From assembly GCA_015832175.1 (NCBI GenBank), contig WJXW01000003.1:3100001-3164000 (forward strand): a DNA stretch of 64,000 bases, in the 5' to 3' direction. This stretch comes from Paraphaeosphaeria minitans. Its lineage: Eukaryota > Ascomycota > Dothideomycetes > Pleosporales > Didymosphaeriaceae. A program made the translations under genes and the position numbers. The notes below the pieces were generated by a model. It had not been told where the DNA came from. It made no database searches and was given only the letters and a program-made list of their open reading frames with translations. This document shows positions 13,229-33,375 of the stretch, one piece after another. The stretch's first letter is position 1. Each line of letters begins with the position of its first letter.

Positions 13229-15509
13229 TCAATCGTGGTTACCTCCGCGGCGCCTATGCTTGCCGGGAAAGTCGACTTCAGGATGAACAACGCGCTGTTG
13301 GAAATCAGTATGCGTTGCGCTAGTGACGAGTGCTGTAGTGGTGGAATCTTACCATGTGGCGGGTCAAGGCGTCATTGCGGGAAAATGTCTTCTCCTCGAC
13401 GCATAGTGCGCATCGAACCTTTTGCTTGCGCGCGTTGTGGATCGTGTCCTCGTGCCGGGTAAGATCGTAGGGCCTCGAGAAGATAGTATTGCAAGGCTTT
13501 CCCGTCGTGGGGTTGATTCGCTCGCACTTATGAGGCCCTGCTTGCGAGTTGCGTTCCAGCAAAGCCGCTGATGTCATGCTGGAGCCCGTCGTCGTCGTCG
13601 CCGTCGCAGAACTGCGATGACCCTCGCGCTTGTGCTTTTGCAGCTTTTGTGGAGTTTCGAAGCGCTGCGAGCATCCGTGATAGGTGCAGGTGTACGTCCC
13701 GCTATCGGCGCTAGAATCTGCGGGCTTCACCAGGCGATCACTCGATTGACTTCCCGGCTCGAGGCCCGCTTCGCTCGCGCTAGACTCCATGGATGTGAGA
13801 TGCGCCGGAAACTGAGGATTGGAATCCGGGACAGCTTGCATGTTGGATGCCGTGCGATATTGAGATGGGGGTGCGAAGGTTGCCATGTCGGTGTAACTGG
13901 TTTGCAGCGACGGTGCTGCAAATGCAAATGTCGAGGAGGGTTGCGAAGTGCCAGCAGAAGACGCTGGGAAGTTTGGTGAGAACTGAGGTGTCGCCCAACT
14001 GTCTCTCCGGTAGGACTGACCAGATGTTGTGTCAAAGGTGGATTGGGTGGCGTTTCTATATTGGTCGCCACCGTTGTATTGGTGGTCGTACTCGCTTGCG
14101 CCACCATCCGGGAACAATGGTACCTTGGACTCATCGTCGGTCTCCCGATAATCTAGTAGTGCGTCCTTTGGTGAGATTGTCTTAACGGCTTCCTCATTAG
14201 ACTGTACTCGCGACTTCATTGCGTAAGCTGCATCAGCCTCCACCTTTTGCTCACGTGCTGCCGCTGCGGTGCCGACAACGCCGCGAGGTGAGTTAAATGA
14301 GTTGAGGGGTTGCCTGTAAGGTGATCCTCTCCGGAAGGGTGAGTCACCGCGTGACACCGTACTGGAAGGAGACTGTGATCGTGCCATCTGTGCTGCCTGG
14401 AGACTACGCTGGACAATGTCGTTGGGGTTGCTGTTGCGCCAGGGCGACAGCAGCGTGTTTGCTGCTGGCTTAGCGTGAGGTATTGACTGTGTTTGCGTTA
14501 CACTAGTCGGGTCAAACGAGTAATCCGCGGCAACATCTGTGTACGTCCTTTCGAACTTTGGAACAGGTCGCAAGTCTATGTCGTCATCGTAAGCAATGAA
14601 CTGATTGAAAAGCCACGAGTCCACCTTGCGGAGAGTCTCACCGTTAGGGGGAACCTTGAATTCCAAATCATCACCATGGCTCGTGTGCGGTGTAGCTGGA
14701 GAGTCGTGACCATGACTTGACACTGACTGTCGCGCCGAATGTGCGAAGCCTGGGACATCCTCATCAGGAACATGCTGGTCCATGAGTGCTTGTTTCATGG
14801 ACATATGCGCTGCCATGGTAGAGTCCATGCCTGTCGATGTCGGTGTGTAGTTGTTGAAGCTATGAGATCCCATGAAAGAATCTTGTGTGGGAGTATGTGT
14901 CGGTGTTGGAAGGTGGTTCGAGACGGTCGAGAAGGTTCTAAGGTTTTCGTCAGCTTTGTTCGATGCGTTGAGTAGAGCTGAGCTCGATGGCAAATTCTCG
15001 GAGAGCGCGACGTACGGAAAAGTGGCGGTCGGAACAACAGGCTGGTACTGTGAGCCTGCAGAGCCTACCGACGACGAAGAGGACGCGCGCTGATGCGTCT
15101 TGCCTGTCCGGCTCTGTGCAAGTGTCTGCAGCGACTGGGTGTGACCAGACATATTCTGGAAGGTGTTCCAGTTGTTGTTGATGGTTGCGCCAGTGGCGTT
15201 CATCGACGGAGGGTATACCGCAGGCAGCTGCGGTGTCGGTGTCGACTGCTGGATCCTGATAGATGGGTTGAAGTCGTATGCGCTCGTCATGAACGAATTC
15301 TGGACCTCGTTGACGGCGATATCGGAATCTGCAAACGTCCGCTGTGATTCGATGTAGTCGTTGAGAAGTTTCTGGTCGTAAAGTTGTTGCGCGGAGAGTT
15401 GTTGCGATAGCTGGTCGAAAGAGAGTTGTTGTGGTGATGTAGGTGAAGGAAGCGTAGCGGAAGAGTGGGTCTGTGGGAGGTGTTGACGTCTTTGTGATAG
15501 TGCTAACAT
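13229..15509 (-). CDS. C2H2 zinc-finger transcription factor, RPN4-like
   Basis: The product is 740 aa: exon 1 is 15509-13353, a 58-nt intron spans 13295-13352 (GTAAGA...CAACAG), and exon 2 is 13229-13294. The start is ATG at 15509; codons upstream are TTG-initiated and unlikely. The first 600 residues are Gln/Ser/Thr-rich, as in activation domains. C2H2 fingers fill roughly the last 120 residues: CTYHGCSQRFETPQKLQKH, then CERINPTTGKPCNTIF with SRPYDLTRHEDTIH, then CALCVEEKTFSRNDALTRH. The last finger is completed only by splicing, which adds RVVHPEVDFPGKHRRR. This finger set is the one annotated as Rpn4 (proteasome-gene regulator) in aspergilli. The name rests on my memory of that similarity; target genes are unverified. 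Confidence 0.85.
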
Positions 15510-18500
15510 AGTGTCGAAGAAAAAGTAAGGGACCAGGGCGGGTGGCAAGTTACTTTATACCGAGGACGAATGACCAACTGATGACTCGGCGAGAGTAGGC
15601 CAGTCCTTGATGAGGTGATCTAGTATGGAACGCAGTGGAATGCTAACAAGCCGGCTACGTTCGGAGACTCGGAGCTAAGAAGACTTGTACCTTGGGCTGG
15701 AACGATTGTAATATGCTGAGCGAACGTGTTCGGCCTTGCTTGCCGCTGAATTTGCGCGGAGACTGACTTCTTTCATATGACGCAACAAGACCGGGGTAAG
15801 CCGCCATTGGAGGGACGATCGGCGCTCGGCAACCAGCCCAACCCTTCTGGAACGATACGCCCGCGAGCCTGCATGCACGCTAATAGCCCTGCATACGAAC
15901 CCGGCAAAAATCGAAGCGGGCTGTGCACGTCTTCGGCTGCCATCCGATTTCTTGATACTGCACCCGACAACAAATCGTTACGCTGCACCAAATATAACGA
16001 GCAATAGGCGTGGAGCACTGCGATGCAGCCCTGTACTGATCGCTGTATCGCTGTATCGCTGTATCGATCAGCAAGCGAATGGTCTGCGGGGGCCTTTGTT
16101 GCATGGATTCGGACAGACCCGGAGAAGCCACGAGCTGTTGCAGCAGACGGACACTGCCCAGTACACGGTACTTTGGCAGGATAGGCGAGCCCAAGACACG
16201 ACTCTGTCCTGGTAACTCCTCCGTAGTGTCGAGGATAGTAGGATAGCGCGCTCGACAATGTTGCACGGCCACAGGCCCGCAAGGAAAGCGTCTCTTGCGA
16301 GGTGACAGCGCCACAGCTCTGGACCTCCGCAGTCACCTGTCATGGCGCGTGACCTGTACCTCCTCTGTGGTGCGTGGCCTCGTGGCACCAGACGCCGGAC
16401 ACGTTCCTTTCAGCTCATTTGGCATCGTGATGCGCAATACAGTTCAGTGCAAAGTTGGAGACAGAGCGTCCAGGTGTCTTGGGAAGCATTCGCTGAGGCC
16501 GGTGAGCAACTGCAGAAGCACGCAGAGTGCCATCTACCTGCTCTCTGGACACGCACCAAATCTCCACCACTATAGTTGGTGAACCTAATAATCATCGCCT
16601 TAGACCAGTTAACTGGGATTCCTGCTCGCCAGCACGGAACGTTCATGGCACCCCGCCGGAGACGCTGTTGTGGTGCAAGATGGGCCTTTGGGGTCACAAC
16701 GTACTCCCATGTCCCGGGGCCTGTAACGGTCGACGCGCCCACCGGGCACCGGGAAGCACAGAAAACTCTGCATCCGAACACAACAGTCGGACCACAAGAG
16801 GTGCCGAGGATGGCCGCTGTCCAGCCGTCGTCAAAACAAAGTTGGTGTCAATAACGTGGTGGAGCAATTTTTACTACCATGAGGCTTGTGAGCATTGAGT
16901 GGCCCGGAAAGGCCGTCTTGGCAGGGTCTTGTGGCAGTGCAGACGATCAAGCCACATCTTGGGTCTTGGATGCACTGCAACGGGCGACTGGCCAACCGCA
17001 CCAGTGTTACGGGTGTCGGTACTGCTACTGATCCAGATCTCAAAGACAGCATTGCACTCTCGCAGGCTGTCGTGCGGTGCTCAAACTCGCCAAGGTCGTG
17101 GTGAGCTTCGCTTAAAGGCCTATGACATCATTCTTGCTCTACATTCTACGGGAATAATCGCATGCGAGCAGCCACGCTTCCGATGCTGAATCTTCCATTC
17201 CGGCTCATTTTACATTCCATTCTGGGTAGCTCAGTCTCTAAGCAGACCACACTTTATCAGCTTCCTCGATATTGGCACGACCGTCTCTTCTTGTAACTGT
17301 TGTCGCATATCAATATTGAAGATCGCCAACGGCTGTGGGGCCTCTATCGGGCGCCAGCTGTCCTAGCGTCATGGTCCCCCAATCCGAGAACACGGGTTGG
17401 AAGAGATGCCAGGGCAGTGCGGGGCAGGAAACGCCCTGCGTCAACTACTGGAACCCTCTTCTCGCTTCGATGCTGATTTGGGAACTTGGAATGCCGATCA
17501 TGACGAGTCGCTGCCTCATTCCTCCTCGAGTCTCCCTGCAGTCGGCATGCACTTGTCTTTCATGACAAATGGATCATTCGCTTCCCTTTTACCGTTCTGG
17601 TGCAGTAGACTATGGGAATGCACAGGTGCCGTGCGCCGTTGCCGATGCGTCCTGCGGTCCGCATATGCAGGGAAGCAAGAAAATCTTGCAAGCCAATTCA
17701 ACGCGCGGCGTGGCTTCTGCATGGCTCGTTTCATTGAACGTCAATGCTCGTTTGAATTCGTACGTGCAGCCGGTGTGTGTGCCCCTATGGACAGCACACC
17801 TACCGCATCTGTTAGACTGAGCATTCATCACTCAGCACCTAGTAAACTTTCGCAATGCCCAGCAGTGAACCTGCGAAGCATTTTCTGTTCTTCGGCGTGG
17901 GCGATGGTTGGAAATCAACAACTCGGCGCAATGCATCGGCCCACAGACAACAGCGTTACCTTCGGATAGATATCTGCCGACCTCGGTAGAAGTGGTATAC
18001 GGCGCATATACGGCGCACACGCGGCGCAAGCTCGGTTGTTGGGTGTAGTTATCTTTGTAAAACCCTTAGCGCTCACTTGTCTAAAATTTCGTTGGCACCG
18101 GGTAGGGCTGTGGGAAAGAGCTCGGCCCGCGGCCCCCGCGGAATCGGAGCCTTACTCGTAAATCCCTTTTGCTTGCTCCTGCACGAGTCCGGATACCCGC
18201 AGCCTATGGCCTCCACTCCGATTCCGATAATTCGTCCGCGAAGCAGCTACTGTTAAAGCAGCCCGATTACACGTGGAAGGCTTTGCTTGAGGCTGAGCTA
18301 AATAAGCTGACCACTAACCGCAGACTTTTCGTGTCGCCAAGCTTTTGGCCCTGTCCTCGCAACGCGAGCTGGAGATGGATAAATCTGAACTAGATATAAA
18401 TCTGAACTAGACAAGCGAAGGCGGCGACTGCGAAATCTACGGGAATCTGGGGAAAGGCGTCCAAGGCGTCAACTTCTCCCGGCTCCCGTGATGCCGTCGC

Positions 18501-20352: not shown

Positions 20353-21763
20353 ATGGATGACCACGAACTGCAAGCGATCAACCCTCGCGAGGTTGAGGCC
20401 GACACCAATTCAAGCGAGCCAAACCTGCCAAGGGTAGATGGAGGCAAAGATGCATATCTGGTCCTGGCATCTGTCTTTGTACAGGGAGCCTTGATCTGGG
20501 GTGAGAAGTTAACCTGATCAGCCCGGTTTGGTTACGAAGCTAACATCCAAGAGGCTTTGTGTACGGATTCGGTGTCTTCCAAGAATACTATTCACGACAA
20601 CCGCAATTCTCCGGTAACGTGTCGGGCCTTGCTGCTATCGGCACGACAGGATCTGTTAGTCGCCCTGAACAATGAACTACCAGATCGTCGGATTAATGTT
20701 AGAATAGGGCATAATGTATCTCACGTCGCCGCTTGTGTATGGCTTCTTTCAGTGGCATCCAGAATGGCGTAGGACCGTCAGCCTGATTGGCTTCGCTATC
20801 ATGCTGTCCGGCATGGTAGGCGCTTCGTTCGCAAACTCGGTCACACAATTGCTCGTAACGCAGGGAGTTCTATACGGTCTGGGAGGCTCACTGCTCTTTT
20901 TCCCAGTCTATTCTTACCTCGATGATTGGTTCGTCAAGCGCCGCGGTCTAGCATTCGGCGTAATGATTGCTGGCGATGGAACGGGAGGTGTTGTCATTCC
21001 TTTGATCACACAGTGGATGCTTGACAGATGGGGTTTCCGAACGGCGATGCGCGTGTGGTCCATTATTAGCTTCTGCTTCGTCTCTGCGTCGCTGATCTGC
21101 TTGAAGCCTCGCCCAAAGGTTCGAAACACTGCCGAAACAGTCTCCCGAGGCTTCGACATGCGTTTTCTCAGAAGTCCCGCTTTCTGGATCCTCCAGGCTG
21201 GAAACATATGCCAGGGTCTGGGCTACTTCATGCCGATCCTATACATGCCTTCTTTTGCTGCTGCCCGGGGCTGGCCTAACATCACTGGCACTATCGCCGT
21301 TTCTCTGTGCAACATATCCCTCGTTGTTGGCGCGACCGCGACTGGCTGGATTGTCGATCGATACCATGTCACCACGGCCATCATGATTTCCTGCGTTGGC
21401 ACTATGGTGGCTGTTTTCATATTCTGGAGCTTCTCGGTTTACCAACCCATGCTGTTCATCTTCGCAATCACCTACGGGATCTTTGCTGGCGGTTTCCCTG
21501 CCACATGGTCGGGCTGCGCCAATCCGGTGCGCCGGAAATATCCTGTGGAGAATGGCATGATTGTCGCACTATTCACAGCAGGCAAGGGGATAGCCTCCGT
21601 CATTTCTGGTCCAGTGAGCGGAGCACTGATCGAAGCCGATACATGGAAGGGCCAAGTAGGGTTCGCGTATGGCAGTGGTTATGGGTATATGATAATCTTC
21701 TCAGGTATCACCGCGTCATTTGCAAGCATTGGATGGATAGGACGGCGATTAGGGTTAGTGTAA
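20353..21763 (+). CDS. MFS transporter, monocarboxylate (MCT/MCH)-like
   Basis: Plasma- or organelle-membrane carrier of the major facilitator superfamily. Exons are 20353-20500, 20554-20654 and 20708-21763; both introns are 53 nt (GTGAGA...AAGAG and GTTAGT...AATAG). Product 434 aa with about 11-12 hydrophobic helices. The opening GGKDAYLVLASVF, the WGFVYGFGVFQEYY segment in TM1 and the loop after TM4 (DDWFVKRRGLAFG) are typical of the fungal MCH branch, as is the cytosolic loop with KPRPK. The start ATG at 20353 gives a short acidic cytosolic N-terminus. The frame is intact. It is convergent with the methyltransferase 150 bases downstream. The substrate is unknown; members of this branch carry carboxylates, riboflavin or other small molecules. 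Confidence 0.92.
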
Positions 21764-21916
21764 AAGTTCAAAATTTGGGATACTTGGAGATTGTGGTCAA
21801 ATTGGAGTTCCGCACACAGACCGTAGGGGCAACTCTGGTCACAGAACGATTCCATCCTGACGCATATTCAGATACTTTATCTGATTACGCCGAGACCATA
21901 GTGCAGGCGAACCATA

Positions 21917-22552
21917 TCATGACTTTCTCAACGCCAGTACGAGGCCACCGCTTTCTTCTTCTTTGAACTTTCGATAATTGTGCAAGTTGTTCTCCAATAC
22001 TTCCACTGTCCCACTGTCTTCTAGTCCTCTCACTATCTTTTCGAAATCCGATTCTTTCCAGAAACTCTCCAGGATAGTGGCTATGAGTATACCACCAGCT
22101 TTTACAATTCGTACGAGCTCTGGTAACGGCTCTGCTCCTACGTGCCCGTGGGTGAAAGTCCCACTGCACGTCAGCGCATCGTAAGTGCCGTCCTTGATAT
22201 CAAGCTTTCTCGTCAAGTCTGCAACCTCCAGCTTCCGGTATGCGCCGGTCTTCTCTGCTACCTTGAGCATGCCTTCACTAAGATCTAGGCCGTCGATCGT
22301 CTTGAAGCCGGACTGTTGAAGTGCGACGCCAACAAGGCCGCTGCCACAGCCTGCGTCGACTACGATTGCGTCCAGCGTAGGAACCTTGAGATACTTTGGC
22401 ACCATCTCGGCGACGATTTGTGGCGCAGTGAAACTGTAGGTTTGCATATCTGCATCGTAGCTGGATGCCCATTGGTCGTAGAGCTGCCGCGACTCATCCT
22501 TGCTTTTGGCTGCGAAAACACGGTCGAGGAAAGACTTATCAGTGGAAGACAT
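21917..22552 (-). CDS. SAM-dependent methyltransferase, METTL27/WBSCR27-like
   Basis: The 211-residue class I methyltransferase is a single exon. The ATG at 22552-22550 is the first in frame; the codons before it would need a TTG start. Motif I (VVDAGCGSGLVG) lies at about 64-75, the acidic end of strand 2 in GLDLSEGML, and the family's LYDQWASSYDADM at about 24-36. The TCSGTFTHGHVG segment is characteristic of the WBSCR27 group. It probably acts on a small molecule, but the substrate is unknown. It is convergent with the MFS gene. No frame damage. Confidence 0.88.
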   Translation of the reverse strand: MSSTDKSFLDRVFAAKSKDESRQLYDQWASSYDADMQTYSFTAPQIVAEMVPKYLKVPTLDAIVVDAGCGSGLVGVALQQSGFKTIDGLDLSEGMLKVAEKTGAYRKLEVADLTRKLDIKDGTYDALTCSGTFTHGHVGAEPLPELVRIVKAGGILIATILESFWKESDFEKIVRGLEDSGTVEVLENNLHNYRKFKEEESGGLVLALRKS

Positions 22553-24138
22553 AGTGATGTTTTCGTTGTTATTGATGAGATGTAATTGATTGCGTGTACT
22601 TCTTGTCAATGGCTGTCTAAAAGCCAAATAGTGCGGCTGAGCTTACGCAGAATGACGTCACATGTCTCCAGACATCAACGAATATCTTAGGTGAAAATAC
22701 CCAAACAGCTTACAGCTTCGGAAGGATATGTGGATGTGACACCCTGAAGTGCGTCAGAAATCTAAATACCTACTCTTCGAAAGTTCAACATTGGATATTT
22801 GCGTTCGGCGTGGCCATGTCATCCTTGGTTCTCATCAGCGTCAACACAATGGAATAAGTATCACCGCAGCTTCCGACTCGTCTATCAATATTGATCAGCC
22901 ATGAGAATATCCCAAAGTCGTTAAGTTTCTTGAACAGGCATCCCACGTATTGCTCAGTCGCAACGCGACTACACATGGCGTCCACAGGCTGGGTAAGGTA
23001 GCCAGGACACATGGATACGTTGCGAAATCGAGACATGCTCCTAAGAAAAAACTGCAGATGTTGGGCGACAGGAGTATAGGAATACTCAGTTCACTCAAAT
23101 TTACTGGCGTTACCTTGTTGAGTGGCTCAGACATCAATTCTTGTGGCAAATGAAAGATAAAAATGCAACATCCTCAGTTGTAAGCTGTCGCACTCATTGG
23201 GCCTCAACAAGGTTGTTGCGTCGCGGGAAGAATACATTTTCCTAATATCGGTATAAGTGCTGATAGCATTGACTACCTAGCAGGCATAAAGTTTCCGCGT
23301 CGCACAGTCACGCTTTGTGGAAATCCGACCAACGAGCACTGTTCTACACATCTTATAGCACGAGTAGAATTTCATCTTCGACATCCTCTATCACCGCAAT
23401 CCATAAGAAGCACGCCCATGACATCGAGAGGAGATCAGATTGCTGAGAGAACGTAAAAATGTGGACGATATAATTTTGCTACTCTGCGGCACAGAAGGAG
23501 TTCACTGGGGAGTCGCTCAACCGACGGTATGACATGAAAGCGACACCATTACTCCCCTCGAACCATAGACAGGCAACTTTACCAGGAAGAGCAGGAATGT
23601 CTACAGCTACAAAAGCCTTCACGGAACACCCATACACATACTATAGTATTCGGGTTATATACACATGGGCCTTATCACCTCGAAGAACGACTAAGAGACT
23701 TCAGCTACCTCGCCATAAGCAGCCATCGTGCAAATAAAAGTGAGCAAGAAGAAGCTTATTCGATTGCCGATCATGCAGAACGCACGTGGATGCCAAGTTC
23801 TCGAATATTACTGAACCGGGTAGGCGGAATCTAAATTTGCGCTTAGCTTCGACGTGCGCTTTACGCAGACAGATCACAGAAAGGCCTTGGCCTAGTGCGG
23901 GTGGTTTATTTTTTTTTTTCAATCCTTCTATGCTTTGCCCCACGCAATGCGTATCTCCGTTCGATCATGTTTTGTATCCTGTGAGCGCTCGAGGCTCACG
24001 ATGAGATCTGTAAAGTAAGTGTGTACGTACCCACTTTACAACCATCAATACGCTCATTCCAATCTTCTCAACACTCCCTTACAAATCTTCAACATCTTAC
24101 ATTCTCAATTCCTATATTCTAGATACATTTTTCACCAA
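22553..24138. other. Intergenic, no gene seen
   Basis: About 1.6 kb with only short frames. The first part should hold the methyltransferase promoter. No repeat or RNA gene is recognised. Confidence 0.4.
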
Positions 24139-26901: not shown

Positions 26902-27864
26902 ATGGTACTGATACCGGGCGTCCTGCCACCGTCGCACAGCACCTGGCAAGCTGTGTGCACACTGTTTCAGTACTTCCCTCTGGTATGTTTACTGCGCGCT
27001 CGCGAGACTATGGCTTACATAGTGCGCAGGTAACATCGTTACAATGGGTGCTCGACTGGTATCCTATGGGCAAGACATCCAACACATCGCGCTTCAACGT
27101 CTCCGGGAAATGGGGGTGGGCTATCACTGAGTCCACAGGCTTCGTCACGCTCCTGTACATAATGTATACCCTGCCTGAGCAACAGGGTATAAAGACGCTG
27201 CCGTGGGGCAACTGGACAATGGCTGGCTGTTTCGTACGTTCCCAGCGCCAATGCATCCTCCTCTCCGCATGCTAACCATCCATAGGTGATCCACTACGTC
27301 TACCGTGCAATTCTCTCCCCGCTCTTCCTCAACCCAAGCATGTCCCCCATGAACCCGATCATCTGCCTCGGCATGGCCCTCTTCCAGATTTTCAACGCCG
27401 TCTCCATCGGTGGCTGGCTTGCCGGCTACGGGCCAGTCACCGACCAGGACTGGGCGGGCCGCTACTTTTCCATGGAAGTGGGCCTCATAATCTGGGCCTG
27501 GGGCCTCCTCGGGAATGCCTTCCACGACGACGACCTCCGCGAGATTCGCAGATCCGCAGATCGCAAGCAGCGCAAGGAAGCGGAGAAGACGGGCAGGCCG
27601 GCTGATGGTGTGGACAAGGTGTATATGATTCCAAAGAACGGGCTGTTCAGGTATGTGCTGTATGCTCATTACTTTTGCGAGTGGATCGAGTGGGCGGGCT
27701 TTTGGGCCATAGGTGGCTGGAAGTGTCACCCGGCGAGGACGTTCTTGGTCAACGAGATTGCGACAATGTTGCCGAGGGCGTTGCAGGGGAAGAGGTGGTA
27801 CGAGGGAAAGTTTGGCAAGGACAAAGTGGGAGATAGGAAGGCGGTCATACCCGGGCTGATATGA
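26902..27864 (+). CDS. 3-oxo-5-alpha-steroid 4-dehydrogenase-like (SRD5A family) membrane reductase
   Basis: Three exons: 26902-26982, 27030-27233 and 27286-27864. The introns are 47 nt (GTATGT...GCGCAG) and 52 nt (GTACGT...CCATAG) with phase-0 junctions. The product is 287 aa, close to the family length. Several hydrophobic segments are followed by the C-terminal Steroid_dh domain: HYVYRAILSPLFLNPSM near 97-115, then IPKNGLFRYVLYAHYF and EWIEWAGF near 215-245, ending in a basic tail. By family knowledge it reduces a C4-C5 double bond of a sterol-like or polyprenol substrate in the ER using NADPH. The fungal branch is divergent from mammalian SRD5A1-3, so the substrate stays open. The frame is intact. 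Confidence 0.87.
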
Positions 27865-29017
27865 ATGCCTGCAACCTATGGCCAGTCGACACGACGCGCA
27901 CCACTTCGTGCTGCACGCCGATATCACGATACATACTTGGGCTTTCTGTGAGTATCGTGTCGGAAGCCAGAGCACTCTTGGTATACCAGCACCCCTTACA
28001 AAGCTATACATAATCATAATTCAATACGACAAGGGATTCACGCTCCCACCGAAAAAGCCCCCCCTGAAAACCGATCAGATACCCTACTGCATACCACCCG
28101 CGCGACCGCTTTGTCTAAAAGGATATTCTTCAGCACCAGCACGAAAACCTATAGTGATATTTCAAGCACCTACGGGCGGCACCCTCTCCTCAATCCAGAA
28201 AACATCACAACACCATCAATCCTCTTGCCTCTTTGCCTCCCCCATCCGCCCCCTCACTAGGCTCCACCGCTCACCCTCCCTAGAGGTGGTGGGCACGTAA
28301 ACGTCTCTATCTTGGGATTGTGAGGGCAAAGGCATGGGGTGAAGTGCTTTTGTGTCGGGTTGTGCAAGGTCAGATAGATGGGGCTACGCGATGCCCAGTG
28401 GCTGCAGGAAGAAAGCTCACATCATGTTCATCAATGGCAACCTGTAATGTATCTCGCGGGACGGTAAGAAGGCATTCGGCCCCATCGAGCTTATATCCAT
28501 CCCTGGGCATGGATATCCATCTGCACGCGAGGCATGCCATTACTTTCCCGTGTACTCGATCCAGCACGCAGCACCTCGACTTCAATCCCCAAGATGCCCA
28601 CGATTTACCTGCGGACACGCGATGAGAAAGCTGTGTCTTACCTAGTGATGGCACATCACTCCAGTGTTCGGGCCAGGCGAGCCCGGGGGTTGGAACATGC
28701 GCGTTACCCGTGTCGGACGTCAGCCGGACCTCGCCAACGTTCTGTTTCAACCTCAGCCTCCATCCATACAGAGCAGGCCGCGCCGCTTAATTGGCATAGC
28801 AAGTCCGCAAAGCTCTGAAGGAGATATACCCGGTTTCCCTCTGCTCTCCCTGGGTTTGTCTTCTGTCACCGTGTTTTGTCGTCCACCACCTATCCTCTCG
28901 CATTTCTCGCATGTGCTCTGAGCCGCCATCCACTCATTTCACTGTCGTTCGTTCCTAGCTCCAAGTGAGCCCTTTCCGTTCCTTCATACCTGCGCGCAGT
29001 AGCTTCGTCGAGTCCAA
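27865..29017. other. Intergenic and putative promoter/5' UTR of the repeat-precursor gene
   Basis: About 1.15 kb. The 3' flank of the reductase gene comes first. The last 200 bases are rich in C/T (near 28840-28985), as in fungal 5' UTRs, and lead directly to the ATG at 29018. No gene is seen. Confidence 0.4.
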
Positions 29018-29530
29018 ATGCGATTCTCCAGCACCGCCAGCGTCATCGCGCTGGGCGCGCTCTTTCTCAACGCATCCGCAGTCCCGCTCCAGCAAGGCGA
29101 CGGTCTTCGAGCTGTCGAAGCCTCGGTCGCCAGAGGCATAGCCACGTTCAAGGTGTACGTGGTACCTTCCGACAAACGAGGGGCATCTACTTCCAAAGCC
29201 GACGTGATACCCAAGGACAAGAGAGGCATCACGACATCCAAAGTCGACGTTATACCCAACGACCGACGGGGTGTGACCACGTCAAAGGCCGATGTTATAC
29301 CCATAGACACGCGGGGCGTGACTACTTCCAAGGTCGATGTCATACCCAACGACCGACGAGGTGTAACTACTTCCCAGGTCGACGCTATACCCATCGACAC
29401 GCGGGGCGTGACCACGTCAAAGGTCGAAGTCTTACCCAACGATACAAGAGATACCGCGATCCACACCGTACCGCGAGTTCGCGTTGGCAGCGGTCGGACC
29501 CGTGCAGACAATAAGCCCGCGCCCCAATAG
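29018..29530 (+). CDS. Secreted repeat precursor with Kex2-type sites (KEP-like)
   Basis: The 170-residue, intron-free frame starts with a clear signal peptide (MRFSSTASVIALGALFLN, likely cut near ASA/VP at 19-23). A short pro-segment ends in VAR. Seven units of exactly 15 residues follow, from residue 40 to 144, each starting with G or the equivalent and ending in [KRT]R. Typical units are GITTSKVDVIPNDRR, GVTTSKADVIPIDTR and GVTTSKVDVIPNDRR. Units 1 and 2 end in KR and units 3 and 5 in RR (Kex2-type dibasic sites); units 4, 6 and 7 end in TR. A 26-residue basic tail follows. No Cys and no membrane segment. Known relatives in design are fungal KEP proteins and dikaritin precursors, whose Kex2-released cores become signals or cyclic peptides. 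No UstYa/DUF3328 gene (HxxHC motif) is seen in the window. The core sequence is not one I know. Confidence 0.8.
   Translation: MRFSSTASVIALGALFLNASAVPLQQGDGLRAVEASVARGIATFKVYVVPSDKRGASTSKADVIPKDKRGITTSKVDVIPNDRRGVTTSKADVIPIDTRGVTTSKVDVIPNDRRGVTTSQVDAIPIDTRGVTTSKVEVLPNDTRDTAIHTVPRVRVGSGRTRADNKPAPQ
29135..29449 (+). repeat. Seven tandem 45-bp coding units (15 aa each)
   Basis: The period is exactly 45 bp with no frame-breaking indels. Units 3-6 also form a 90-bp super-repeat: a VIPN-DRR unit alternates with an IPI-DTR unit. The most divergent copies are the first and the last, as expected of an array that grows by central duplication. Confidence 0.93.
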
Positions 29531-30746
29531 GCCCCGAAGAAAAGAACAACGGAGGTGGGGAACGACGGTCCAAGTCGATCTCTACGGGAAACCGGGTTCA
29601 AGACATGGGCAAAGTCGAAAGCCAGACGGGAGGGTCCGATGAGAGCGCAAGTTTCTACGTTTACATAAAAGAGTAAGCTTCCGAAGTGTTTTGAAGAGCG
29701 TGCCGGAGAGAAGAGGCATGACCCTGGCGTTGATGGGAATGTACAGTGAGATGTAACTATTGACGTTCGGATGATAACGCAGAGGAATGTGATTATGGTC
29801 AACGCCGAGAAATGTGTGAGACGGAAGACAAGTGACGAGTGAATGTTGACTTTGATCTCGTGTCTCGTTGTAGACATGACGCCTTCACCTCGAGTCTTCA
29901 TGATGGTCTTCACATGGTGATGATGGCTGTTTGATGATGATTGTTGATGCAGTCGTTCCGACGATGGATCAAGCATCACTCTTCAACATGACATGTCGAG
30001 GCCAGCTGCACCGAGGCTCGGAATCAGGTGGTCCGATGTTGCTGGTCGGTACACTACTGGCCGGCCCCAATCGCGCGACAGTAGCTGGCTACCGTTGCGC
30101 GCCGCTCTTCAACCAAGCTCGGGTCCTTTGAGCTAGAACCAGCTCGCACACTGGACGCTGATGCTCAGGTGCTGATGGGGAATCAGAGACGATGCAAGGT
30201 TGCGTCAGGCGGGCTGCAGCATGGTGATGCAGGGAACAGAGGGTGCAGACAGCCGATGGCAGCGAGTGCAAGGCGTTGAGGAGTGCACAGTAGTCAGTCG
30301 TAGTCAGCATGGAGAGAACAAAGACGATGATGCGATCGATGGTGCAGTTGCAGCACGAGCGCGGCTGCGTGCAACGTTGCGAGGAAACGCTGATATTAAT
30401 AGCAGGGTCAGTATAGCAACGAATCCGGGCGGACTGACGTATTCGAGGCCGGAACCTGAACTATGAGGGCGGGAAGCCGGGATGATGCCATGGAAGCGGG
30501 CCAGCGAGCGCGACATGATGCATTTGCAGAGATGCGATGGTTCGCAGTCTGGAATGGGGTTGCGGGAGTATCTAGTCGCTGTTAGGAGGGCGCGAAGGCA
30601 ACTGTGGATACCATGGTCTAATAGACTACCTAGGTGCAGCTGCCCAAACGAGCAACTCGGCTCTTTGTTGGCCCGGAGGCGTCCCGTCGAGCGCTGTTGG
30701 GCGGCTTTCAGGTGGCCGTTGGGAAGCAATTGCTGCATGCCGGCGC

Positions 30747-31084
30747 TTGTGTGTGTGTGTGTGTGGTTTTCACTTGCATTGTGTGTGTGTGTGTGCTCTT
30801 CACTTGCATTGTGTGTGTGTGTGGTCGTCGCTTCCATCGTGTGTGTGTGGTCGTCGCTTCCATCGTGTGTGTGTGGTCGTCGCTTCCATCGTGTGTGTGT
30901 GGTCGTCGCTTCCATCGTGTGTGTGGTCGTCGCTTCCATCGTGTGTGTGTGGTCGTCGCTTCCATCGTGTGTGTGGTCGTCGCTTCCATCGTGTGTGTGT
31001 GGTCGTCACTTGCATCGTGAGTGTCTGCCCGTCAACGTCACTTTCATCGTGTGTGTCTGTCTGTCTGTCGTCGTCGCTTGCATC
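30747..31084. repeat. Minisatellite of 24-26 nt units with (GT)n core
   Basis: Units of the form (GT)4-5 followed by GGTCGTCGCTTCCATC recur at least seven times between about 30820 and 31010. They are flanked by related copies with CACTTGCATT. Unit length varies through the number of GT steps. Confidence 0.9.
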
Positions 31085-31223: not shown

Positions 31224-31512
31224 GGGCTGGCAGTGGCAGTGGCAATACCTGGCAGTAGATGGCAGTGGCAGTGGGCAGTGGGCTGGCACTGGCAGTGGGT
31301 GGGCAATGGGCAGTGGGCAGGCACTCAGCAGGCAATAGGCACTGGCAGTAGGCAGGCACTGGGCAGTGGGTGGGCAGTGGGTGGGCAGTGGGTGGGCAGT
31401 GGGTGGGCAGTGGGTGGGCAGTAGGCAGTGGGCTGGCACTGGCAGTGGGTGGGCAGTGGGTGGGCAGTGAGTGGGCCGTGGGCAGGCACTCGGCAGGCAA
31501 TGGGCACTGGCA
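31224..31512 (+). repeat. G-rich minisatellite (GGGCAGTGGGT-type units)
   Basis: Units of 10-12 nt such as GGGCAGTGGGT and GGCACTGGCAGT are repeated about 20 times. Between 31361 and 31421 five or more near-perfect copies put runs of three G at short intervals on the plus strand, which fits a G-quadruplex-forming pattern. Confidence 0.9.
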
Positions 31513-31893: not shown

Positions 31894-33375
31894 ATGACCA
31901 CCAACGGCACGGCCGGTACGTCGCTCGTTGACTCTCCTACTCCTCCTCCCACTCCTTCTTCTCCTACCTCGCCTCCTTCTCCTACCTCGCCTCCTGCCGC
32001 CCCGTCGTCTCCTTCGCAGCCTGCACCCTCTCCTTCGCAGCCTGCACCCTCTCCTTCGCAGCCTGCCCCCTCTCAATCGCAGCCGAGCGTCGTGCCAACA
32101 TCGCCTTCTGCAGAGCCGCTTACGACCTCGCCCGCACCCCCCTCGCAGTCCTCGGTGGACCTACCAGCTTCGTCCGCGCCCGATACTGAGCCTTCTCCAG
32201 CGCCCACCAGCGAGCCGCCGTCCTCAGCGCCCGTGTCGCTCCCCACGAGCGACCCGGCACCGACGACTCAGCAGCCTTCATCGACCCCGGAACCCCCATC
32301 CTCGGCACCCGAGCCGTCAAGCAGCGAAGCACCACCATCCTCGGCCGCCGCCCCCTCGAGTCCTGCGCCCTCTACCAACCCCGACACAACTTCCACCGTC
32401 ACCGCCCAACCCACACCCACATCGACCCAGATTATCACTTCGGTGGTGACGCCCAGTGCGACGAGGCCCGATGAGACCCCGACCCCCATCACCATCATCG
32501 AAACTGTCATCAAGTCGAGCACACCGAACCCCACCACCAACAACGACGGCAATGCCGCATCGCCGGCAAGCTCTGGGGCCAGCTCGACAGACCCGGCATC
32601 GCTCCAGAATCCCCAGAACAAGCATGAAACCGGCGGTTTGAGCCCTGCTGGAAAGACGGCCATCGCCGTCGTCATCCCTGTTGTTGCCGTCGCACTGCTG
32701 CTGCTAGCCGGCCTCTGGTTCTGGCGCAAGCGCAAGTCGAACAAGAGTGCCGAGGAGGCGCGCAGGAAAGAGGTCGAGGAGTACGGTTTCAACCCCAACG
32801 AGGACCCTACCCTCCCCGCTGTCGGCATGCACTCGGAAATGGCCGAGGACCAGAGCGGATACCGAGGATGGGGCAACACCGCCACCAGCTCCAACCGCAA
32901 GGCTTCTACCACCCTCACCAGCGGCATGACCTACTCGGACAGCAACAGCAACCCCGGCGACGCCTACGCTAACCCTGGCTCCCCTACTCACGCCTACTCC
33001 GACGCCCACTCCGCCGACCCTCTCGTCAACGGTCGACGAGAGACCTTGGACTCGGATGGCATTGGCGCCCTTGGTGCCGCTCCTGTTGCCGGCCAGAACC
33101 AGGCTGGAGTTGCCCGCGGTCCTTCCAACGCATCTTCGTCATACTCTGCTGCCGAAAGATCAGACAACTCGGGCGACTACCCTCACCCCATGAACCACCC
33201 GCAGGAGTATTACGACAACAATGGATACTACCCCTCATCCGGTCCATACGACAACTCGTACGGTGGAGGCCAGCAGCCTATCATCAGGGACGTGTCCGCA
33301 CGGCGAAACACGAGGATTGAGAACCCATCCGTGTTCCCCCAACAGGGGAATAGCGGCATCGCACAGAACTTTTAG
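31894..33375 (+). CDS. Mid2-like single-pass cell-wall sensor/mucin-type protein
   Basis: The 493-residue frame is a single exon. Residues 1-250 are almost entirely Ser/Thr/Pro, including three tandem PAPSPSQ units, and would be heavily O-mannosylated. One transmembrane helix follows at about 254-277 (AVVIPVVAVALLLLAG), then a basic stop-transfer (WRKRKSNK) and a cytosolic tail of about 210 residues. The tail ends in RRNTRIENPSVFPQQGNSG, a conserved ending of this fungal group. There is no classical signal peptide at the ATG; either the helix acts as a reverse anchor or a short upstream exon was missed. By analogy it reports wall stress to Rho1/Pkc1. No Cys-rich WSC domain is present. Confidence 0.78.
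   Translation: MTTNGTAGTSLVDSPTPPPTPSSPTSPPSPTSPPAAPSSPSQPAPSPSQPAPSPSQPAPSQSQPSVVPTSPSAEPLTTSPAPPSQSSVDLPASSAPDTEPSPAPTSEPPSSAPVSLPTSDPAPTTQQPSSTPEPPSSAPEPSSSEAPPSSAAAPSSPAPSTNPDTTSTVTAQPTPTSTQIITSVVTPSATRPDETPTPITIIETVIKSSTPNPTTNNDGNAASPASSGASSTDPASLQNPQNKHETGGLSPAGKTAIAVVIPVVAVALLLLAGLWFWRKRKSNKSAEEARRKEVEEYGFNPNEDPTLPAVGMHSEMAEDQSGYRGWGNTATSSNRKASTTLTSGMTYSDSNSNPGDAYANPGSPTHAYSDAHSADPLVNGRRETLDSDGIGALGAAPVAGQNQAGVARGPSNASSSYSAAERSDNSGDYPHPMNHPQEYYDNNGYYPSSGPYDNSYGGGQQPIIRDVSARRNTRIENPSVFPQQGNSGIAQNF

Follow-up and report, generated by a model that had tools for sequence, protein, structure and literature searches.

The closest described systems belong to the KEPs, an established class of fungal repeat precursors, of which one survey counted 1193 (PMC6339444) and another 7878, 2560 of them without homologs (PMC7329392), according to the available portions of both texts. 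The criteria given in those portions are three or more tandem repeats, each no shorter than 8 aa and bounded by KR/KK/RK/RR sites (PMC7329392), and repeats amounting to at least 15% of the protein (PMC6339444), and peptides of 9-24 aa are the commonest size class in most Dikarya (PMC6339444). Linear peptides derived from KEPs are on record for agaricomycetes, detected by mass spectrometry in Coprinopsis, and knockouts of six KEP genes in Coprinopsis had no visible phenotype in pure culture, as stated in the available part of PMC9769878. In Ustilago maydis, Kex2 cuts Rep1 into peptides, which assemble on the hyphae as amyloid-like fibrils, and the accessible text of the same review describes Kex2 as preferring an aliphatic P4, tolerating Thr and Pro at P2, and disfavouring Asp at P3 (PMC8528282). 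Dothideomycetes pheromones have a PYG[LM]P[IV]G or a two-Cys core in the excerpted text of PMC6339444. Paraphaeosphaeria minitans (Coniothyrium minitans) is presented, in the parts available of two papers, as a mycoparasite studied for Sclerotinia control (PMC9785797, PMC12859388). Its genus stands in a survey table under KEP type G-8, with a di-histidine motif and DUF3328 nearby in 45/49 (PMC7329392, table as available), which is a different type from the precursor described below.

We analyzed a 64-kb stretch of P. minitans DNA, hereafter the window, in which the ORF at 29018-29530 on the + strand is almost certainly a gene. The features of the locus are as follows.

26902..27864, + strand: 3-oxo-5-alpha-steroid 4-dehydrogenase-like gene, the upstream neighbour (PF02544 on the third exon); exons 26902-26982, 27030-27233, and 27286-27864, read by eye
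28830..29017, + strand: pyrimidine-rich stretch (70% C+T) upstream of the ATG
29018..29530, + strand: predicted KEP precursor gene, single exon, 170 aa (ORF, homologs P0001 and P0002, pN/pS 0.24)
29018..29080, + strand: predicted signal peptide MRFSSTASVIALGALFLNASA, 21 residues (hydrophobicity, conservation, A-x-A)
29081..29134, + strand: pro-leader, 18 residues, with C-terminal AR (PR in both relatives)
29135..29449, + strand: seven 15-residue units ending, in order, in KR, KR, RR, TR, RR, TR, TR; unit starts at 29135, 29180, 29225, 29270, 29315, 29360, and 29405
29450..29527, + strand: C-terminal tail DTAIHTVPRVRVGSGRTRADNKPAPQ, 26 residues

The units have a common length but differ in sequence, the seven copies averaging 0.66 in pairwise identity; the most divergent, copy 1 (GIATFKVYVVPSDKR), is also the sole copy of the seven with F or Y. 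Together they account for 105 of the 170 residues (62% of the protein), and Tandem Repeats Finder detected the array at periods of 45, 90, and 135 (scores 164, 295, and 332). Pairwise differences between copies 2 to 7 number 36, 37, and 114 at codon positions 1, 2, and 3, most of them being synonymous; the pooled uncorrected pN/pS of the sense frame is 0.24 for these copies, rising to 0.31 with copy 1 included, and adjacent pairs give 0.27. When neutral change was simulated from the consensus, pN/pS averaged 0.99 and never fell below 0.41, with 0/2000 replicates as low as 0.24, a comparison that is indicative, the copies being non-independent and the null a simple star. The sequence thus shows a coding sense frame under purifying selection. 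Three other frames tested had pN/pS of 1.8-2.0, and two of the three contain stops. The antisense ORF at 28984-29979 (- strand) overlaps the array in such a way that its wobble positions coincide with those of the sense frame, and its copies give a pN/pS of 0.45. We rejected this ORF as a real gene: its constraint is weaker (0.45 versus 0.24), Pfam found nothing in it at E 0.001, and the sense frame is the one predicted for both database homologs. A spurious minisatellite ORF is ruled out by the pN/pS values and the homologs. The seven units of exactly 15 residues behind a signal peptide, each closed by KR, RR, or TR, which the first-pass annotation had read from the letters, are confirmed as an ORF at 29018-29530; the array is real, since its pN/pS is not that of chance and its leader, period, and closing Arg recur in two homologous proteins.

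The predicted signal peptide has a mean hydropathy of +1.97 over residues 7-18; all 21 residues are the same in the Paraphaeosphaeria sporulosa homolog, and 17/21 are the same across the three proteins. Its putative cut site reads A-S-A, A-S-A, and A-F-A in the three proteins, as in the A-x-A rule for signal peptide cut sites, and the N-terminal signal peptide expected of a KEP is thereby predicted. The C-terminal tail shares 19/26 residues with P. sporulosa, and SGRT occurs in all three proteins. Upstream of the ATG, the pyrimidine-rich stretch, which was picked post hoc, is matched in C+T content by 0.3% of same-length stretches of the window on the + strand and would be compatible with a fungal promoter or 5' UTR. 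Pfam gave 0 matches to the precursor above the curated cut-offs; RTX_C (20.3 bits versus a cut-off of 30.2) and four other matches, all below their cut-offs, were set aside. AlphaFold returned no confident fold (mean pLDDT 37.5, with 170/170 residues below 50), which is weak evidence because the input held three sequences only; the low-confidence model has a strand in every unit.

In a protein database of ~5.8 billion sequences, 2/81 candidates matched the precursor at E <= 1: P0001, the hypothetical protein DPSP01_007888 of P. sporulosa (140 aa, 5 units, E 1e-54), and P0002, from a JGI source (156 aa, 6 units, E 6e-49). An iterated profile search recovered the same two among 796 candidates and no further relatives at E <= 10. 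Of the 39 residues that precede the units in the window protein, 33 are found again in P0001 and 26 in P0002. Across the 18 units of the three proteins, G1, P11, and R15 are present in 18/18, and 17 units carry D at position 13, where the remaining one has E. The last unit is recognizably the same in all three, K/R-V/I-E-V-L/V-P-N-D/E-T-R followed by D. The first-pass annotation had made its reading depend on conservation of frame and dibasic sites in sister species; with the predicted proteins of the relatives included, 18/18 units retain the closing Arg and the period of 15 residues, and therefore this point is answered in favour of the reading at the protein level. Mean unit identities are 0.66, 0.80, and 0.73 within proteins and 0.74, 0.64, and 0.67 between proteins, and because these values are mixed, we make no claim of concerted evolution.

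No paralogs were seen in the genome, where a protein search returned, besides the gene, only the opposite strand of the same locus (E 2.6e-4) and a match at E 0.5 that is interrupted by stops; a degenerate DNA pattern for the units was uninformative (64+48 genome matches versus 71+55 in the control). The window's own precursor protein is absent from the database results, though the neighbour protein of the same assembly is present there. The product of this steroid dehydrogenase-like neighbour (287 aa) is 100% identical to PMIN03_011125 of P. minitans and has 209 database entries at E <= 1e-100, the best 120 of which span Dothideomycetes to lichen fungi. The second match, among the matches listed, is from Didymosphaeria variabile (89%), a member of the same family as P. 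minitans (Didymosphaeriaceae, Pleosporales). A P. sporulosa neighbour that could serve for synteny is absent from the best 120 of the 209 rows, and the best cluster is represented by P. minitans. Set against the 209 entries of its neighbour, the two relatives of the precursor indicate that it either occurs in a small lineage only or has been left unannotated in many genomes. With two relatives in ~5.8 billion sequences, the depth of homology is thin. P. sporulosa is a saprobe or endophyte, and the presence of the precursor in this species argues against a role limited to mycoparasitism.

The closing sites fall into two classes. Of the 18 units, 7 have K at P2, 4 have R, and the other 7 have T, giving KR/RR at 11/18 sites and TR at 7/18. 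At the 11 KR/RR sites, P4 is N (9), S (1), or K (1), and Ile in 0/11; the four internal TR sites have Ile at P4 in 4/4, and the three last-unit TR sites have N, so that Ile-P4 occurs in 4/7 when all TR sites are counted. The association of Ile-P4 with TR (Fisher p of 0.0007 with the last units left out and 0.011 over all sites) is suggestive only, because the units may share descent. Since Kex2 takes an aliphatic P4 and tolerates Thr at P2, IDTR fits the extended motif, and the Ile-P4 of the internal TR sites is suggestive of this extended specificity. P3 is Glu at 1 site and Asp at 17, and this Asp would count against fast Kex2 cutting on the preferences described in the available text of PMC8528282. 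Given N at P4 and Asp next, the last unit of each protein may stay uncut. The AR or PR at the leader end could serve Kex2 as a non-dibasic site ahead of unit 1, Pro at P2 being tolerated in the same excerpt, and unit 1 may therefore also be freed N-terminally. In yeast, Asp also occupies P3 at a cleaved site of the alpha-factor leader.

We propose that the precursor is a Kex2-processed repeat protein that releases linear 13/14-mers acting outside the cell, a reading that we consider probable. The precursor would enter the ER via its signal peptide, a Kex2-type protease of the late Golgi would cleave behind the closing Arg of every unit, and the basic residues would then be trimmed by a carboxypeptidase of the Kex1 type. 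Each molecule could thus yield as many as seven short linear peptides, presumably free of UstYa-type modification: the KR/RR sites would give 13-mers such as GVTTSKVDVIPND, and the TR sites 14-mers with -IDT or -NDT ends. We infer expression, secretion, cleavage, and trimming of the precursor, as well as the linear final form and the function of its products. The predicted cores have 13-14 residues and a charge of 0 to -2; hydropathy lies between -0.52 and +0.41 in 16/18, the other two being at +0.68 and +0.73. F, W, Y, or C occurs in just 1/18 units, which has both F and Y, and linear peptides are for this reason favoured over dikaritins. A precursor of the Kex2 type that releases linear peptides is well supported by these sequence features, and so is the earlier proposal of linear released cores, with 13/14-mers now predicted; its remark that most copies lack Cys and aromatic residues extends to 17/18 units over the three proteins. 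The peptides most likely act extracellularly, as a signal or in biotic interactions.

A more specific form of this model, which we put forward tentatively and hold to be doubtful, is a lineage-specific family of linear hormones in Paraphaeosphaeria and near kin. Precursors of this family would have two site classes, N-D-[K/R]-R and I-D-T-R, in the second of which the Ile at P4 would stand in for the lost basic P2, and a -ND 13-mer and an -IDT 14-mer would be released at different rates. The peptide might even be a divergent Ste2 ligand, given the STE2 receptor locus in the genome and the lack of a plausible precursor with either of two known pheromone motifs. If the Ile-P4/Thr-P2 pairing is not mere shared descent, it could offer a natural test of extended Kex2 specificity.

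The window has 170 ORFs of 110 aa or longer, and the genome context was assessed with a Pfam scan of 20 large ones, the antisense ORF included, which lie in the region from 13.3 to 43.9 kb. Besides the steroid dehydrogenase, three matches were above the curated cut-offs, namely a C2H2 zinc finger, an MFS transporter, and a methyltransferase, and patatin, RING, ABC, and DnaJ matches fell just under theirs. The steroid dehydrogenase-like neighbour is outside the peptide system. The MFS transporter (+) adjoins the methyltransferase (-) at 20708-22642, and the C2H2 zinc-finger ORF lies at 13323-15554 (-); these ORFs are perhaps a small metabolic cluster, or a product of chance. A 26-bp GT-rich minisatellite of about 10 copies (30755-31024) and, after it, GGGCAGT-type repeats at 31261-31512 lie between the KEP gene and the next large ORF. 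The 493-aa ORF at 31894-33375 (+), for which Pfam gave nothing at 0.001, combines an extended Ser/Thr/Pro-rich region with a single hydrophobic segment and basic residues directly behind it, and we take it to resemble a fungal wall-stress sensor. Genome-wide, there is one match for the proprotein-convertase (Kex2-type) P-domain and one STE2 locus, together with 27 profile matches for UstYa (PF11807, DUF3328), some of them pieces of one gene. In agreement with the first-pass annotation, which saw no UstYa-like oxidase nearby, none of these 27 falls within the 64 kb of the window; on the contig, 178,643 bases lie between it and the start of the nearest one, a distance that should, at the gene density assumed, exceed the 15-gene range given in the available part of the KEP survey. 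Two UstYa matches lie close together near 659-663 kb of contig C16, and the UstYa loci are candidate dikaritin-type clusters elsewhere in the genome.

Other fates of the secreted product have to be weighed. It could remain mostly uncut and serve as a repetitive wall or surface protein, as Asp at P3 and TR at 7/18 sites would slow Kex2 and the low-confidence model has its strand in every unit. Nevertheless, the closing Arg is kept in 18/18 units, the same modelling gave no confident fold, and no hydrophobic GPI-like C-terminus is visible, and we regard an uncut protein as unlikely. Surface-active peptides, like the U. maydis repellents (Rep1), would arise by analogy from the same type of precursor, and alternating V/T/V residues could form strands, but the predicted cores are short and in 16/18 cases near-neutral in hydropathy, so that this role seems quite unlikely to us.

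A cyclized or modified RiPP of dikaritin type, with its modifying enzymes encoded elsewhere in the genome, would share the precursor layout and could draw on the genes behind the 27 UstYa profile matches, pieces of genes among them. This reading is very unlikely in view of the 0/27 matches in the window, the 178 kb to the nearest on the contig, and the presence of F, W, Y, or C in 1/18 units. The slimmest chance goes to the peptides being the alpha-type sexual pheromone of the lineage, the Ste2 ligand. One STE2 locus is present, and two motif scans of the genome found no plausible canonical precursor: PYGxPxG had 1 exact match, in a stop-broken frame (with one mismatch, 40 versus 73 in the reversed control), and C-x-[FLIMV]-PGQ-x-C had 3 matches, in open frames of 28-55 aa. 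However, the core has no motif of the Dothideomycetes pheromones described in the available text of PMC6339444, and two motif scans leave room for another pheromone gene. Moreover, the units start with GV in 12, GI in 5, and GA in 1 of 18, and only GA fits the Ste13 dipeptide XA/XP. A Kex2-processed precursor of linear peptides remains our preferred reading.

The precursor had been announced as undescribed and as a candidate new fungal peptide system. The former stands only in the narrow sense that four strings from the unit had no match in the 5.39 million open-access papers searched, and is qualified by the ortholog already deposited as a hypothetical protein, which may also be in the supplementary list of the 7878-KEP survey, a paper available to us in part. 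Searches of the literature found nothing on KEX2 in C. minitans, the sole match concerning Aspergillus niger, and nothing relevant on the P. sporulosa genome and peptides among the matches listed. On Kex2 subsite preferences they found one unrelated paper, and on peptide precursors of Pleosporales two, one of which is a survey already cited here. The latter is an overstatement: because KEPs are already a known class, with 7878 in one survey (PMC7329392, as available), the precursor is a new addition, not a new system.

Precursors of the dikaritins (ustiloxin, phomopsin, asperipin type) have the same signal peptide and Kex2-flanked repeats. Their core needs an aromatic residue for cross-linking, and 17/18 units are without F, W, or Y; unlike dikaritin loci, the window is devoid of UstYa over its 64 kb, and an aromatic residue or Cys occurs in 1/18 units. 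The alpha-type pheromone precursors of Dothideomycetes also give linear secreted peptides from a Kex2-cut repeat precursor, and the PYG[LM]P[IV]G or two-Cys core is absent from 18/18 units. Rep1 is likewise a Kex2-cut repeat precursor in the accessible text of PMC8528282, the likeness being one of precursor type; as a point of difference, the window cores are short and near-neutral in hydropathy.

The KEPs come closest. As described in the available portions of Le Marquer 2019 (PMC6339444), Umemura 2020 (PMC7329392), and Vogt 2022 (PMC9769878), they likewise combine a signal peptide with near-identical repeats that end in Kex2-type sites, and a linear product is expected in both. None of the KEP motifs quoted in the accessible text of PMC6339444 was found in the units by eye, QKLKVD sharing only KVD. 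Whereas the surveys, in the same portions, count KR/RR/KK (PMC6339444) or KR/KK/RK/RR (PMC7329392), 3/7 sites of the window precursor are TR. By hand count, the 4 KR/RR sites of the P. sporulosa protein delimit 3 clean single-unit fragments, in keeping with the three tandem repeats required; the 4 of the window precursor delimit two single units and one TR-joined double unit, reaching three repeats only with the double unit counted; and the 3 KR sites of P0002 delimit two single units. Surveys that count only KR/RR/KK/RK can therefore undercount units where TR sites occur. The repeats make up 62% of the window protein, against the 15% asked for in the available text of PMC6339444, and its predicted peptides are within the 9-24 aa size class of the same source. 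To the KEPs, this precursor adds a concrete peptide family in the P. minitans lineage.
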